Virus record (IMG/VR): IMGVR_UViG_3300021440_000039 | Coordinates: 1 to 46,449 of that record | DNA: 46,449 bases | Origin: a virus | Reading direction: 5' to 3' (one strand) | In this document: piece by piece, positions 38,986-44,503 of the stretch | Layout of the letters: each line of letters starts with the position of its first letter | How positions within the stretch are numbered: the first letter of the stretch is position 1 | The notes under the pieces: model-generated | The model's database searches: none | What the model saw: the letters and a program-made list of their open reading frames with translations, nothing else | Told to the model about the DNA's origin: nothing | Translations under genes and position numbers: made by a program

Positions 38986-39270
38986 ATGCAACTCAACCAC
39001 GAACAGCTGGTGTCTTTTGCGGCAGTGTTCGGGCCGATTATCACGGCCCTTCTGTCGGGATACCTTACTTGGAGGTTCAAATCTTCCGCTGAAGGCAGGC
39101 GGGGATTTCAAGCACTCATCGACGCGAATGATAAATTCCGCGATGCGATGTTCCGGGAGGTCGAGCGCAAAGAGCAAGTCATCCGAACACTCTCCAAGGA
39201 AAACAACACTCTCCGCAAGGAGAATGAGCGACTTCGCCACAACACCGATACCCACAGTCCAAACCAATGA
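38986..39270 (+). CDS. Single-span membrane coiled-coil protein (holin/spanin candidate)
   Basis: 94 aa. Membrane segment L-V-S-F-A-A-V-F-G-P-I-I-T-A-L-L-S-G-Y-L (about 8-27, in pieces), then a long charged coiled coil (VERKEQVIRTLSKENN..., 55-85). An N-terminal anchor plus coiled coil is the layout of inner-membrane spanins, and of some class III holins. No Rz1-like lipoprotein gene was found nested within it. Its ATGA overlap with the receiver gene suggests the two act together. Confidence 0.6.
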   Translation: MQLNHEQLVSFAAVFGPIITALLSGYLTWRFKSSAEGRRGFQALIDANDKFRDAMFREVERKEQVIRTLSKENNTLRKENERLRHNTDTHSPNQ

Positions 39271-39644
39271 ACAAGCCCTCCGTTCTCATCGTTGAAGATG
39301 AACCCGAGATTGCCGAGATCTTCGCCAAAGTAGTCCTGTCTATCGATTGCTCCTACATTCGAGCCTCTCGCATCAAGGAGGCCGAACTCGCCCTGCGGCA
39401 TATCGCTTTCACGATCGTTATCTGTGACCTGATCCTCCCCGACGGTGTCGGCATCAGCATCGCAGAGAAGGCCATCAAGAGGGGGTGTGGTCTGGTGATC
39501 GTGACGGGGTTTGCTGACAAGTATGCTGCCGACCTCACCCGACTCTCCGAAATAGACCCGAGAGTCCAAATCCTCCACAAGCCTTTCCCAGTTCAGACTC
39601 TCGAGAAGACGCTCATCGGTCTGCTGGAACCTCTTTCCCGGTAG
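39267..39644 (+). CDS. Stand-alone response-regulator receiver domain (CheY-like)
   Basis: 125 aa, almost the exact length of one REC domain. All key residues are in place: acidic pair E10-D11 (V-L-I-V-E-D-E), phosphorylatable D54 (V-I-C-D-L-I-L-P-D-G), T80 (V-I-V-T-G-F) and K105 (L-H-K-P-F). It should accept phosphate from a histidine kinase and change partner binding. No output or kinase domain follows. It ends the rightward tail/lysis operon; how the signal is used is unknown. Overlaps the membrane coiled-coil gene by ATGA. Confidence 0.85.
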   Translation: MNKPSVLIVEDEPEIAEIFAKVVLSIDCSYIRASRIKEAELALRHIAFTIVICDLILPDGVGISIAEKAIKRGCGLVIVTGFADKYAADLTRLSEIDPRVQILHKPFPVQTLEKTLIGLLEPLSR

Positions 39645-39732: not shown

Positions 39733-40533
39733 CTAGGGAATTATCCTGCGAACCTGCGGGAGCAGGAGATTCCGTTTGTCGGAGGCGTGCTTGATTCCAG
39801 CGTCGTAGTTTCCCCACTTGTGGGCGACGTTGTTGGCCGAATAGGCGGCACGGATCGCATCGTAACGGGCCGCAATGCGGGAGAGCGGTCCCAGATGTTT
39901 GCAGTGCAGCAACCAAACCTCAGGCACTGTGCGGGGAGTGCGATGATCCACGTTGATTCTGTCCCCTTTGGAGAGCACGAAAGCCCCTCCGTGTGCTCCC
40001 GGGGCAAAGGACACAGCTTTCACCCCAGAGGGGCGGAAAAGCACAGGCTTTCCGTACCAACGTGAGTCGGGCGCCGCATACTTCACCTCATCGTAGATCT
40101 GCCCAGGGCCGGTGGGGAAGACATCGCTCATCATTTCCCAACCCGTCGGTGCTACGACACTCACCCCCAGCTGCCACAACGTGGATAGGATTTGGGGCCC
40201 TGTTGGGAAGTAGATGAGCTCGTCGCAATCGACAACAATCACCCAGTCCGCCGAGGTGCCCAACCAGCACACACTCTTGAGCCTCGAGTTCTCGGCGTCA
40301 TCCAACTGCTGACCCTTTTCCCAATCGATGACGTTGATCCGATCGTAGTGGGGCCACTCTTTGGAGGGTCCTTTGTTGTGCTCGGCTTGGAACCATTGAA
40401 GGATCTGCCGAGATTTGTCGGTGCTGCGGCCCTCGTAGACGAAGATGTGGCGGGCGAAGGTGAGGTAGTGTCGCAACGTGTAGGGAAGGATCTCCTCCTC
40501 GTTCCGACACAGGATGTAGACATCTACGTTCAT
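39733..40533 (-). CDS. Glycosyltransferase, GT-A fold (GT2/GT92-like)
   Basis: 266 aa. M-N-V-D-V-Y-I-L-C-R-N-E-E opens the nucleotide-sugar-binding domain, and V-I-V-V-D-C-D-E-L-I-Y-F-P has the metal-binding Asp-x-Asp (D102, D104). The sequence R-H-I-F-V-Y-E-G-R-S-T-D-K-S (diagnostic E-x-x-S-T-D strand) fits glycosyltransferases that act on peptides, polysaccharides or modified bases. Target in a phage: DNA bases, virion proteins or host surface. It is the last gene of the minus-strand operon, one base after its neighbour. Confidence 0.7.
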   Translation of the reverse strand: MNVDVYILCRNEEEILPYTLRHYLTFARHIFVYEGRSTDKSRQILQWFQAEHNKGPSKEWPHYDRINVIDWEKGQQLDDAENSRLKSVCWLGTSADWVIVVDCDELIYFPTGPQILSTLWQLGVSVVAPTGWEMMSDVFPTGPGQIYDEVKYAAPDSRWYGKPVLFRPSGVKAVSFAPGAHGGAFVLSKGDRINVDHRTPRTVPEVWLLHCKHLGPLSRIAARYDAIRAAYSANNVAHKWGNYDAGIKHASDKRNLLLPQVRRIIP

Positions 40534-40534
40534 G

Positions 40535-41887
40535 TCACCGTTTCTCCAGAACGATTTGGTAGCCGCGGTTCAGGACCTTGATGTGGTCCGCATAGCAGGA
40601 GAGGAAAGCGTCGATTGCGATCTTCGGCCGATCGACCTCTCGGGGCATGTCCAGCCAGCGGTAGTCATCAAAGATGATGATGCCGCCGTGCTTCACAGCA
40701 CGGAAACCTATCACGGCGTCGCGCAGAACGTTCATGGCGTCGTGGGCGCCGTCGATGTAGAGGAAGTCGAGGGACTCCTTCAAGTCCTGGTCCCAGTCGA
40801 GCATCTCGGCCGAAGTCATCCGATGGATGGAACACCGGTCCCCGTACGGCGCCAGCTTCTCCCGGCAGATCTTCTCATTGGAGGAACAGTCGATCGCACG
40901 CCGAACGTGTTCGGCCGAACCGGTGAACGGATCCACGCAGATGTAATGGGAGAGCGGGGCAGTGAAGATCCAGTCGAGCATCCACTTGGCGGAGTCGCCT
41001 TGGAAGGATCCGATTTCCATTCCTAAGGCCCCCTCCTTGTCCCGAAGGTGCCACAGGTGCTGGACCCAAACAGGCCCGTGCCCGTGTGCGCGGGCGGCCG
41101 TCGTTCGCAGGTCCACCTCGGGGATGATCGTGGTCGACGGCTTGAGGTAGTAGGAGCGATAGATCTCCACGTCCTCCGAAGGAATCAAGGTCCCCAGCTT
41201 CTCGAGGTTGGTGTCCTCGATGCTGTTCTTGGGAGGGCTCTCCTTGTGCCCGACACCGTAGCCTTTTCGGCCGGGCATTCCTTTGATCCCAATCACCAAC
41301 GGATGGTTGTCTCCGCGAAGGCTGAGGATCGTCTTCGACCCGAGAAGCCGAGCCCAGAGGGCCACATCGAAGAAGGGGTTCTGCTGTTCTCGAAGGATCT
41401 CTTGGATCGTCTGCAAGGCGCTGAGGTGGACCGCGGTCTGACAGAGGCTCGCGTGCCGAATGTTGGAGTGTCGTAGCCACCACCGGTGCTTGATGTTGAA
41501 GTAGTAGGCATAGGGCTCGCCGTAGGCCGTCAGTGTCGCGTTCGCCTTCTCGGAGGTCTCGAACAAGGACATCACCCTATCAATATACTCGGGATCGTAC
41601 CAGTCGTCGTCCTCAATGAAAAAGACGACATCGCCGATGATCTGTTGGTAGCTCTCCAAGAAAAGCCACCGGAGTTTGGCGATCATGGAGGAGACACCGC
41701 GCCACTTCGGATTGGAAATCCGGGTCTGCCCCACGGCGTGGGAGTAGGGGGTGATCGCCAGAGGATGTTCCCCGTCATCCAACACGAACCACTGATCGGG
41801 TTTTCGTGTCTGGCGGGCCATGTATTTTTCGCAGAGGGAAAAGGCCTCTGGTCTGTCTCCTGTGCAGGTTACGATTGTGACTTTCAT
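40535..41887 (-). CDS. Glycosyltransferase-methyltransferase fusion
   Basis: 450 aa. Residues 1-225: GT-A glycosyltransferase (V-T-I-V-T-C-T-G-D-R-P, W-F-V-L-D-D-G, and F-I-E-D-D-D-W-Y-D-P with the metal-binding acidic run at 92-96). Residues about 265-450: class I SAM methyltransferase (motif I E-I-G-S-F-Q-G-D-S, 291-299; D-F-L-Y-I-D-G-A-H-D, 374-383; G-G-I-I-I-F-D-D-Y, 401-409), Methyltransf_24-like. The two activities in one chain suggest sequential sugar addition and methylation. ATGA overlap with rad50C-like gene. Substrate unknown. Confidence 0.8.
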   Translation of the reverse strand: MKVTIVTCTGDRPEAFSLCEKYMARQTRKPDQWFVLDDGEHPLAITPYSHAVGQTRISNPKWRGVSSMIAKLRWLFLESYQQIIGDVVFFIEDDDWYDPEYIDRVMSLFETSEKANATLTAYGEPYAYYFNIKHRWWLRHSNIRHASLCQTAVHLSALQTIQEILREQQNPFFDVALWARLLGSKTILSLRGDNHPLVIGIKGMPGRKGYGVGHKESPPKNSIEDTNLEKLGTLIPSEDVEIYRSYYLKPSTTIIPEVDLRTTAARAHGHGPVWVQHLWHLRDKEGALGMEIGSFQGDSAKWMLDWIFTAPLSHYICVDPFTGSAEHVRRAIDCSSNEKICREKLAPYGDRCSIHRMTSAEMLDWDQDLKESLDFLYIDGAHDAMNVLRDAVIGFRAVKHGGIIIFDDYRWLDMPREVDRPKIAIDAFLSCYADHIKVLNRGYQIVLEKR

Positions 41888-42453
41888 TCGATGGTATGGA
41901 CTGTGCCTATTTGGAGTTCTGTGATATGGGTAACGAGAATGATTTGGACTCCGAGTTCCTCGGAGAGTTGGAGCAGGAGCTCACGGATACGGGGTCGGTA
42001 CTTGGTACTGATGAAGCGGAAGGGCTCGTCCAATACTATCAAGCGGCGGGGTCTCGGCGAGGCCATCAAAAGACAGGCGAGGCGGAGAGCAAACGAAGTC
42101 ACATCGATCACACCACCCCCAGCTGCGGTCATCGGATCGATCTCCTCCCCGTTGCGGACAAAGACCAAGCGGGCTTCTGTCTTCCCGCGCTTCTGCTCGA
42201 AGAGGATGCGGAACTCGTAGGGATCCTCAAACACAGCACACAAGCAACGGGTGACCACGGACGATATCTGCGAGTGGGCTTCCTGCTGCATCTTCTGAGC
42301 GATCCCCAGCACGATGCCCCTAACCTCGTCCCACGCTGCGAGCTCTTCCTTTGCTTCGGACCAGCTTTGTTTCTCAGCCCGCAGCATCTTGCGGGTAGAG
42401 CGCAAATCCCCAGCGATGCGCTCTCCAATGCGTCGAAGTTCAGCGGTGCTCAT
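41884..42453 (-). CDS. Rad50/SbcC C-terminal half (ABC-type ATPase lobe)
   Basis: 189 aa from ATG at 42453 (an earlier start at 42522 lies inside the upstream gene). Signature-like motif A-A-G-G-G-V-I-D-V-T-S-F-A-L-R (110-124), Walker B R-R-L-I-V-L-D-E-P-F (136-145), and H-loop V-T-H-I (174-177) give the C-terminal ATPase half of Rad50/SbcC. The signature lacks the usual L-S-G-G start. It should pair with the N-terminal half encoded at 43616-44503 to form one ATP site. Overlaps the coiled-coil gene by 14 nt and the fusion gene by ATGA. Confidence 0.8.
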   Translation of the reverse strand: MSTAELRRIGERIAGDLRSTRKMLRAEKQSWSEAKEELAAWDEVRGIVLGIAQKMQQEAHSQISSVVTRCLCAVFEDPYEFRILFEQKRGKTEARLVFVRNGEEIDPMTAAGGGVIDVTSFALRLACLLMASPRPRRLIVLDEPFRFISTKYRPRIRELLLQLSEELGVQIILVTHITELQIGTVHTIE

Positions 42454-42691
42454 CGAGGAACGTTCCCCACTTCTTTTGGAACTTGGAGAGTGCTGTCTCG
42501 AGCTCTTGCTCCTGTTTGACAATCTGCTCCCGATGTTGCTCTAACAGGGAGCGGGCCGACGATATAGAGTGGCACCCGAACTCTCGGACCAGCTGGGCCT
42601 CGAGCTGCTTGACGGCGCCGACCGCTTGATCTTTCTGTCGTTTAGCTTCGGCGACCGTACGCTCGAGCCTCTGATACTTCTCAAGATTCAT
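42440..42691 (-). CDS. Coiled-coil protein, possible Rad50 arm fragment
   Basis: 83 aa, wholly helical and charged (RLERTVAEAKRQKDQAVGAVK, REQIVKQEQELETALSKFQ), so a coiled coil. One Cys (FGCHS) is near the centre but without CxxC. Between the Mre11 gene (overlap 11 nt) and the C-terminal ATPase half (overlap 14 nt), it could supply the returning arm of the split Rad50, or be an independent adaptor. Confidence 0.6.
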   Translation of the reverse strand: MNLEKYQRLERTVAEAKRQKDQAVGAVKQLEAQLVREFGCHSISSARSLLEQHREQIVKQEQELETALSKFQKKWGTFLDEHR

Positions 42692-43646
42692 CTTTGGTGA
42701 GTTGGTGGAGGAGTTTAGAGGCGGCGGCAGACAACTTGTGGGTCTCCCGATAGATTCTCAATGCCTCGACGAAATCGAAGGAGTGTTTGTTGGTGGGTCT
42801 CAGATTCTCTACAAACTCGGAGACGCTCAGAAGCTCCTTCGTCGTAGGCCACTTCTCTTTAGACTCTGCCACGCCGATATCTTTAGACACGTCCAAAAGT
42901 AGGCTTTCGATGGAGCCGTCTTGATGAATGAGTCCTACTCTGGGTTGATGTAGATACTCATCCGACTTCCTGCGGAAAAAGCTGCCGCAGTTGATCACCT
43001 GACACCCTGTTTGGGTCTGGGCGTTGAAGGGCTTGTGATTGTCTCCGAACACAGCGACATCAAACCCTTTGAGCACCTGTCCGAAGCAGGAGAGCTCACT
43101 CATCGGAGCCGCCTCAGGGTGTTTGGCTTCCTTGAACCAGCAGTAGGCGTGGACCACCGCGATTTCCAAACAACCGCTGTCCTTCCTCGGTGGGTTTTGT
43201 GTCTTCGGTGCGGCAATGGTCCCCCAGGGGTACCCGTGGAGACGGAGAGGACGACAGCCCGGCGGACCCGCTACTACTCGGGGAGATCCTTGCTCGAGGT
43301 TCTCGATCTTCCCTGCCCGCATCAAGACCCCGTAGGCTGTGCGGTGGATTCCCTCGAGGCTGTGGTAGGGGAGGTCGTGCTGACCCGGTACGGCATACAC
43401 CCGAGGCATATACTCGAGGGCCAAACTGATTCCCTCGGCCGGAGTGTTCCAGCGGTCGAAGATGTCGCCCGCACAGATGATCGGGGCTGAATGCTCAAAG
43501 CTGATTTGCTTCAGTTGGTCAAACTGACGCTTGAGCACCTCAGCCCACGAAGGTTCTCCGCTGCGAGCAATCGGGGAATCGGCAGTGATGTGGAGATCCG
43601 ATACGGCGATCGCCACTACGGGATTTTCTGATGACAGATCGGACAT
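42681..43646 (-). CDS. Mre11/SbcD-like metallophosphoesterase nuclease
   Basis: 321 aa. Metal-binding motifs: V-S-D-L-H-I (D17, H19), C-A-G-D-I-F-D-R-W (D61, D64), P-G-Q-H-D (88-91; Asn of the usual GNHD is Gln), A-V-V-H-A-Y, and V-F-G-D-N-H-K-P. These fit the calcineurin-like nuclease of Mre11/SbcD, which cuts DNA ends together with Rad50/SbcC. The C-terminal helical part may be the Rad50-binding region. Its start overlaps the Rad50 N-half gene by 31 nt. Confidence 0.85.
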   Translation of the reverse strand: MSDLSSENPVVAIAVSDLHITADSPIARSGEPSWAEVLKRQFDQLKQISFEHSAPIICAGDIFDRWNTPAEGISLALEYMPRVYAVPGQHDLPYHSLEGIHRTAYGVLMRAGKIENLEQGSPRVVAGPPGCRPLRLHGYPWGTIAAPKTQNPPRKDSGCLEIAVVHAYCWFKEAKHPEAAPMSELSCFGQVLKGFDVAVFGDNHKPFNAQTQTGCQVINCGSFFRRKSDEYLHQPRVGLIHQDGSIESLLLDVSKDIGVAESKEKWPTTKELLSVSEFVENLRPTNKHSFDFVEALRIYRETHKLSAAASKLLHQLTKDES

Positions 43647-44503
43647 ATTTGTCCTCGGGTTTGTTGGTGGAAGGCTTCTTCGGCTTGTTGGAATGTGTGG
43701 GCGCGGGCCCTTGCTTCAATATCAGCGGACTCGGCCAATTGGATGAGACCCTTGAGCCGTTTTGTCCTGGTGACAAGCGTCGAGAGTTTCTCGAGACTGA
43801 TCGTCAATTCCGTTGTGTCGGGAATGGCAATCTCCGAGGCAGCATAGAGCGGAGCGGCCTCCTCGATCCAAGCACAGAGCCCTGCCTCCTTCTTCCGAAG
43901 CTTCACCAATCGGGACTCCTGCTTCTCGAGCTCCTCGAGCTCCTGCAGGAACTCCTCCACCGGACGCATCGCAATCACCTCGGCCTTGATTTTGCGGTAG
44001 CTCTCCCGGTGGATTTCCACTGCGGCTTCGGCTTTTGCCCTCCCCGTTCGGATCTGCTTTTGGATGTCGTCGATCTTGGAGAGGTTGACGAGGTCGTTCA
44101 GCCGGCTCGCCAACTCGCCCGGGGACAGAGTGAACCAGAACGGAGGATCATGCTGGAGTTGGAAATTCAGGTCCGTCACGCGAAGGACCTTGCGGACCGG
44201 GGAGGGGACTTCGGCACCGAATGCCTTGAGCTCTACCCCGTCGAGTTCGTAGCTGTTTCTAGCCCCACGAAGGCGGGTGATTTTGCGATCCCCAGCAACA
44301 AGCCCCACCCGACACTTCTTTTGCCCGTGACGCACGAAGTCGGCACCATTGGGTTTGTTGCGGCACACCCATCGGAGAGCTCGCAGGACCGCAGACTTTC
44401 CCGAGTCGGTATCTCCTATGATGGTTGTGACCTTGGGATCCAGCGGCAGGACTAGCTTTCGATGACGTTGGAAGTTTCGCAGGACTAGGCGCTTCAGTGG
44501 CAT
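43616..44503 (-). CDS. Rad50/SbcC N-terminal half ending at the zinc hook
   Basis: 295 aa. Walker A I-G-D-T-D-S-G-K-S-A (29-38), Q-loop-like L-Q-H-D-P-P-F-W (about 115-122), a long coiled coil (145-260) and, at the very C-terminus, C-P-I-C (C287, C290), the zinc hook that joins two Rad50 arms. The protein ends five residues later, so the arm does not fold back; the other half is encoded separately. First gene of the minus operon, preceded by GATAATAG (44517-44510) six bases before its ATG. Confidence 0.85.
   Translation of the reverse strand: MPLKRLVLRNFQRHRKLVLPLDPKVTTIIGDTDSGKSAVLRALRWVCRNKPNGADFVRHGQKKCRVGLVAGDRKITRLRGARNSYELDGVELKAFGAEVPSPVRKVLRVTDLNFQLQHDPPFWFTLSPGELASRLNDLVNLSKIDDIQKQIRTGRAKAEAAVEIHRESYRKIKAEVIAMRPVEEFLQELEELEKQESRLVKLRKKEAGLCAWIEEAAPLYAASEIAIPDTTELTISLEKLSTLVTRTKRLKGLIQLAESADIEARARAHTFQQAEEAFHQQTRGQICPICHQKIP

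Follow-up and report, generated by a model that had tools for sequence, protein, structure and literature searches.

An Mre11-Rad50-type module of phages and plasmids in which Rad50/SbcC is encoded in pieces, cut at the zinc hook

Rad50, the motor of a DNA-repair machine shared by all forms of life, is normally a single chain, and the natural Rad50 of Pyrococcus furiosus is also one chain. In SbcCD, in Mre11-Rad50 and in T4 gp46/gp47 an N-lobe with Walker A, a C-lobe with Walker B and H-loop, a coiled arm and a CxxC hook are combined with an Mre11 partner. T4 gp46/47 are described as resecting and bridging DNA ends for recombination-dependent replication (PMC3175470, PMC7824862). Here, a viral contig of 46,449 bp with siphophage-like genes for terminase, portal, tape measure and central fibre (IMG/VR record IMGVR_UViG_3300021440_000039; this whole stretch is called the window) was found to carry all these elements in four genes that lie on the minus strand between 44503 and 41884 in the order Rad50 N-half, Mre11-like protein, small helical protein (S) and Rad50 C-half, with successive overlaps of 31, 11 and 14 nucleotides (nt). 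The likeness to SbcCD and gp46/gp47 extends, in relatives of this locus, to a neighbourhood of recombination genes. Unlike in those systems, Rad50 comes as three chains (N, S and C) cut at the hook, the ABC signature reads GGG, the arm of the N-half grows by repeats of about 47 amino acids (aa) that S and the C-half do not match, and the Mre11 gene lies between or beside the halves. Dozens of distant phages, prophages and plasmids share this arrangement, which is a real form. Very probably the four proteins assemble into a DNA-end-processing ATPase of the Mre11-Rad50 type, similar to SbcCD and T4 gp46/47, in which a permanent cut interrupts the Rad50 chain at the arm apex; this reading draws on gene structure, conservation, motifs, fusions, the natural C-N order and the head fit of a structural model. 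The features of the window locus are as follows.

43616..44503, minus strand: Rad50 N-half, 295 aa, N-lobe with Walker A, helical arm and C-terminal CPIC (translation; PHROG 16465, E 2e-20; Pfam AAA_23; top PDB profile matches Rad50)
44393..44416, minus strand: Walker A GDTDSGKS, residues 30-37 of the N-half (translation; conserved among relatives)
43634..43645, minus strand: CPIC codons (zinc-hook motif), five residues ahead of the N-half stop, overlapped by the Mre11 start codon (CxxC near the chain end in 59/59 tabulated relatives)
42681..43646, minus strand: Mre11/SbcD-like metallophosphoesterase, 321 aa, metal motifs DLH, GD, GQHD, VVH and GDNH (Pfam Metallophos; relatives match SbcD-like PHROG 100 and TIGR00619 sbcd)
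42440..42691, minus strand: S, small helical protein, 83 aa (relatives predicted helix-turn-helix and sited directly upstream of the C-half)
41884..42453, minus strand: Rad50 C-half, 189 aa, short coil, C-lobe, degenerate ABC signature GGGV, Walker B and H-loop (PHROG 15167, E 5e-25; top PDB profile matches Rad50 C-terminal parts)
42112..42120, minus strand: GGG at the position of the Rad50 ABC signature (L)SGG (translation and alignments)
42025..42042, minus strand: Walker B LIVLDE (translation; D and E invariant in alignments)
41926..41931, minus strand: H-loop Thr-His (translation; invariant in the C-half alignment)

An earlier sequence-only reading of the window had proposed an N-terminal half with Walker A ending at CPIC, an Mre11-like nuclease gene behind it and a separate C-terminal half with Walker B and H-loop, overlapping by 11-31 nt, and the genes, motifs and coordinates were found as it had placed them. 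The C-terminal end of the N-half reads ...GQICPICHQKIP, followed by the stop, and the ATG of the Mre11 gene (43646-43644) is located within the hook codons ATA-TGT with GAGGA just upstream. The C-half has 189 aa if counted from the ATG and 212 aa if an upstream TTG is used. The register of GGG against the Rad50 signature was counted from the following LR, and the statement on the ABC signature is based on alignments.

The profile of the C-half, when compared with solved structures, finds Rad50 first, namely C-terminal parts (3qkr_B, 1ii8_B, 1f2t_B; E about 1e-6 to 1e-5), and for the N-half profile the N-terminal parts of Rad50 rank first. A Rad50-type N-lobe with Walker A and a Rad50-type C-lobe with Walker B and H-loop are therefore both present, and a single polypeptide joining them through the hook was found neither in the window nor in any split relative. 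The CPIC of the window has the sequence and position, 5 aa from the stop, of a hook that would bind zinc. An SMC hinge is absent from the arm apex, as the N chain ends 2-18 aa past the CxxC and has no room for one. The PHROG families to which the proteins belong are labelled "exonuclease" (16465, N), "ATPase" (15167, C), "unknown" (18563, S) and "SbcD-like" (100, Mre11 of relatives), and none of these labels names a split Rad50.

How general is this arrangement? About 60 loci were added by scanning viral contigs and the genomes of bacteria, among them Sutcliffiella, Brevibacillus and Paenibacillus; a few contigs are counted twice, and the set comprises 59 different N and 54 different C sequences. 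Wherever both halves are present (60 loci), Mre11 and S are found as well, in the order N-S-C-Mre11 (32) or N-Mre11-S-C (28), and the N-half ends 2-18 aa after the CxxC in 59 of 59 tabulated loci. In Microcystis phage Mvi-JY20 the N, Mre11, S and C genes overlap in the same order as in the window. Bacillus phage vB_BboS-125 carries N, S, C and Mre11, with an AP2-domain gene between N and S; its intact Mre11 gene (L002:5992-6972; NC_048735.1 22423-23403) is unannotated in the record. In a 485-kb uncultured phage N, Mre11, S, a clamp-like gene and C are spread across 8 kb, and a long distance separates N from C in Microbacterium phage Magritte. The separation is widest in the complete Tunturiibacter phage Tunturi_5, whose minus strand encodes the N-half, ending LCGKCGDPISKSAA, at 127.5-128.4 kb; its C-half is encoded by the plus strand at 19.1 kb, more than 100 kb away. 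Complete phage genomes carry one N and one Mre11 gene each, and a search of these five genomes with the N profile matched no fused Rad50. The ratio of nonsynonymous to synonymous substitution rates (dN/dS) between close relatives lies at 0.14-0.30 in N, 0.035-0.094 in S, 0.04-0.10 in C and 0.03-0.18 in Mre11, indicating purifying selection on all four genes where measured. The recurrence, the constant break point and the low dN/dS together argue that the split is old, stable and selected. Three candidates from Pedobacter and Chitinophagales (L071-L073) were discarded as they proved to be LolD-type ABC transporters; scans with the C-half of Mvi-JY20 and with the permuted plasmid protein described below found no viral relatives, and one further genome scan found no relatives.

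The plasmid relatives, with their natural REARRANGEMENTS, are the most telling evidence. On Alkaliphilus plasmid pB6464 Mre11, N, S and C are four separate genes. Paenibacillus polymyxa pSC2 and Geobacillus pGspE55-1 encode Mre11 fused to the N-half (841 and 801 aa), followed by S and then C, and these fusions end roughly 20 aa past the CPxC. The Pseudomonas megaplasmids pBASL58 and FeN3W encode a single chain of 632 and 625 aa, respectively, in which the C-half (about residues 7-218) stands ahead of the N-half (about 230-627) and which ends GGICPTC. By its sequence order this C-half-then-N-half chain of proteobacterial megaplasmids is a circularly permuted Rad50. A tblastn search with the permuted protein retrieved 21 plasmid records from nine genera, 15 of them matched over at least 80% of the length. 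The examples from Vibrio, Variovorax, Alteromonas and Acidiphilium all have C before N (4/4); three end at the CxxC and the one from Acidiphilium has an extra tail of ~58 aa. The coordinates are:

L089:4989-6866, L090:4617-6515, L092:2992-4998, L093:2968-4938, L094:3067-4707 and L095:2950-5268: circularly permuted Rad50 on Pseudomonas, Vibrio, Variovorax, Alteromonas and Acidiphilium megaplasmids
L089:6859-7755, L090:6508-7410, L092:5010-5882 and L094:4710-5486: Mre11-like partners of permuted Rad50 without recognisable metal motifs, on Pseudomonas, Vibrio and Alteromonas plasmids

Each of the six permuted examples has a small open reading frame (ORF) directly upstream and an Mre11-like ORF, or an ORF in the Mre11 position, downstream. 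The upstream ORF has profile support as S in Acidiphilium only (19.6 bits against 12.9 for the best shuffle), and the others are assigned by position, length and an FGxxS-like motif. Mre11-like partners that have lost the metal motifs are probably nuclease-dead, and the Variovorax and Acidiphilium versions retain the motifs. In nearly every arrangement S, or a small ORF in its position, is located upstream of C, the clamp gene intervening in the 485-kb phage. Mre11-N and C-N are the only joins among the arrangements found, and these link subunits that are expected to touch; none was seen that connects N with S or C by way of the hook.

A relative (L060) has N and C in the same reading frame, and read-through of the short gap yields one AlphaFold2 chain with the two halves tethered. 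In this model both lobes are well predicted (predicted local distance difference test mostly 75-90), and they align together to P. furiosus Rad50 (4ncj_A, Z 27.0, 293/311 residues, root-mean-square deviation 3.2; 3qku_A, Z 27.7), suggesting that the two halves together make up a complete Rad50/SMC head. The arm of the N-half is modelled as a series of helices with short breaks, and the long N arms show a sequence repeat of ~47 residues (offset 47, z 4.1-5.9 in L044, L041, L028 and L057). It was also observed that N-half lengths among relatives differ by steps resembling whole ~47-residue repeats (e.g. L044:3885-5444). Among the tabulated loci N varies from 295 to 520 aa, S measures roughly 75-90 aa and C near 190-215 aa. 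Since N varies in length and S and C stay nearly constant, the returning coil is no simple antiparallel partner of equal length, and the longer arms must in part be self-contained. The prediction for the S protein of L044 is two helices of 42 and 25 residues with a turn between them, this secondary structure alone being taken from an N+S model with a predicted TM score (pTM) of 0.32. The sequence-only reading had called S an 83-aa coiled coil, of which length and helical nature hold and the picture of one straight coil does not if the predicted turn of the relative is representative. Similarly, its suggestion of an unusually short arm applies to the window, the shortest complete N-half in the set, and not to the family, whose arms measure about 257 to 473 residues between Walker A and the hook. 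Its proposal of an ATPase made up of separate chains is supported by the conserved split, the distance in Tunturi_5, the C-N fusions of the megaplasmids and the head formed by two halves in the model.

How does the split family relate to systems described before? A scan of related phages had been suggested for split and fused versions alike, and a fused phage pair is found in Achromobacter phage JWF, where, as in split loci, an Mre11 gene is followed by Rad50 (gp44/gp43), matched by the same N and C profiles. Unlike in the split loci, Rad50 of JWF is one chain of 670 aa with a CPAC mid-chain and a returning coil. Mre11/Rad50 fusions of the Mimivirus R555 type share with the Paenibacillus and Geobacillus plasmids an Mre11 part ahead of the Rad50 N-lobe, and for Bacillus phage 0305phi8-36 and Anaerostipes fusions lacking one NTPase segment were reported (Yoshida et al., 2011; PMC3175470). 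In the plasmids described here that segment was identified as the product of a C-half gene of its own, located downstream and preceded by S, and neither such a gene nor a C-N order is described in the accessible part of that article. The Mre11-N fusions followed by a separate C-half offer an explanation for the 2011 fusions that miss the NTPase segment. Crystals of the P. furiosus Rad50 catalytic domain (1f2t, 1ii8), in which separate N and C chains form one head, are the laboratory construct of what the split family would do naturally. Phage enzymes encoded as separate chains are also known from jumbo phages, albeit for different enzymes, DNA polymerase III alpha and RNA polymerase beta/beta', and the same survey, as far as its text is accessible, treats SbcC/Rad50 as an ordinary ABC ATPase (PMC7824862).

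UvsX-like recombinase genes are located near all five loci whose upstream genes were checked (L018, L028, L034, L026 and Mvi-JY20), with single-stranded DNA (ssDNA)-binding proteins near two of them. In addition, a helicase gene is found near L041, and a resolvase and a UvsW-like helicase gene in vB_BboS-125. This company of recombination genes resembles that of T4 gp46/47 and fits DNA-end processing for recombination. From the observations described so far we infer not only the assembly but also its stoichiometry, the position of S, zinc binding, nuclease activity and a role in replication. N-half and C-half would each supply one lobe of a joint ABC ATPase head, and two such heads, with ATP between them, would dimerise as usual and so drive the Mre11 bound to them. 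The N-half would bear the helical arm and place the zinc hook at its free C-terminus. As the C-half has a short coil only, S most likely packs with this coil or with the N-half arm, providing the returning part of the arm in trans. The gene overlaps could couple translation and so keep the subunits in balance. The likely task of the complex would be the processing or tethering of DNA ends for recombination-dependent phage replication.

Several observations weigh against such a complex. The ABC signature of the split family is GGG(V) in place of the SGG(E/Q) of Rad50, lacking the usual serine. The window Mre11 has the phosphoesterase fold family and the DLH, GD and H motifs, yet the GNHD/E and GHxH of canonical enzymes are changed to GQHD and GDNH, which makes its nuclease activity uncertain. 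The GQHD and GDNH pair is common to the window, L018, L025 and partly Mvi-JY20, and may be a change of metal ligands specific to one clade; the canonical motifs are retained in Bacillus-type members, Variovorax and Acidiphilium. S matches the fused SbcC family in just one of 27 members: the S of L013 alone hit PHROG 77, just after the stretch that its N-half matches, so that S was not accepted as a generally recognisable post-hook coil of fused SbcC and its equivalence to that coil is conjectural. The N-half of Magritte (L004:4998-6050) has no terminal CxxC and may be a hookless version, and in the window, a fragment, no UvsX gene was found. A predicted structure of the complex had been named as a check, and the L060 model provides the head with an artificial linker, an overall pTM of 0.46 and parts of the arm predicted at low confidence; moreover, SMC heads fit it equally well, so that the fold by itself cannot tell Rad50 from SMC.

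The C-half stop overlaps the ATG of the next gene by 4 nt (ATGA), and this gene is a glycosyltransferase-like ORF (40535-41887, minus strand) followed by a second one (39733-40533, minus strand). Given this overlap, the module for DNA repair may form an operon with the genes for sugar transfer. An ORF at 39267-39644 on the plus strand resembles a CheY-like response-regulator receiver domain, which is unusual for a phage.

Could the pieces be the debris of an ordinary gene? Rad50 normally being one chain and broken genes occurring in phage contigs, sequencing errors or an insertion might have left such fragments, and the sequence-only reading had itself named sequencing error as what would overturn it. 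This explanation can practically be dismissed, since an intact Mre11 gene sits between the pieces in the window, Rad50 is broken at the identical place in about 60 loci, among which are complete isolates and finished plasmids, all four genes are under purifying selection, and the halves of Tunturi_5 are more than 100 kb apart. That distance, like the one in Magritte, could also be taken to mean that N-half and C-half serve in separate machines or that one half regulates another ATPase, with no shared head. Each half, however, is devoid of motifs needed for ATP hydrolysis, N and C are found together wherever a locus has enough sequence and form C-N fusions on megaplasmids, and the joint model yields a complete head, which renders separate machines highly improbable. 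A phage defence or anti-defence device, in which an ABC ATPase works with a nuclease as in PtuAB or GajAB, would agree with the weak similarity of the N-lobe to the PtuA and GajA ATPases and with the glycosyltransferase-like genes that come after the module in the window. Against it, the Rad50 profiles match more strongly than PtuA/GajA, the ATPase is split and not the single-chain ABC ATPase with its own effector nuclease of PtuAB/GajAB, and the flanks of relatives hold a UvsX-like recombinase, an ssDNA-binding protein, a helicase, a resolvase and a clamp-like gene, so that a defence function appears very unlikely in place of replication or recombination.

A serious rival, although still an unlikely one, is that the assembled complex is mainly a structural or tethering ATPase, an SMC-like clamp or end-bridge and not a nuclease, in which Mre11 drifted to a structural role. 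The Mre11-like partners of permuted Rad50 in Pseudomonas, Vibrio and Alteromonas plasmids, which have no recognisable metal motifs, the altered GQHD/GDNH of the window, the degenerate signature motif and the equal fit of SMC heads to the model would all agree with tethering. The canonical metal motifs kept elsewhere in the family, in Bacillus-type members, Variovorax and Acidiphilium, argue for a nuclease, and the recombinase genes close by fit end resection. A DNA-end-processing Mre11-Rad50 complex is the reading that we prefer.

In the open literature no description of a naturally split or permuted Rad50/SbcC was found, subscription journals being mostly outside the search, and a natural split Rad50 is apparently undescribed so far. 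On balance, we lean towards a distinct and widespread class of Mre11-Rad50 on mobile elements in which the apex is always open, the hook stands at a free C-terminus, the returning coil is provided in trans by S and the C-half, and the head is rejoined in reverse in some lineages as a circularly permuted Rad50. If so, covalent continuity through the hook would be dispensable, and S could be a removable lock on the arm or on the DNA ring. The part played by arm and apex in the Rad50/SMC ATPase cycle and in DNA entry is debated, and high-speed atomic force microscopy has been used to argue that opening of the heads leaves the hook closed (PMC6969161). In the family described here the chain is naturally cut exactly at the apex. 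The need for a continuous chain at the apex, hook dimerisation at a free end and the contribution of a separate arm subunit thereby become testable, and a function is suggested for protein families that are now labelled "ATPase", "exonuclease" or "unknown".

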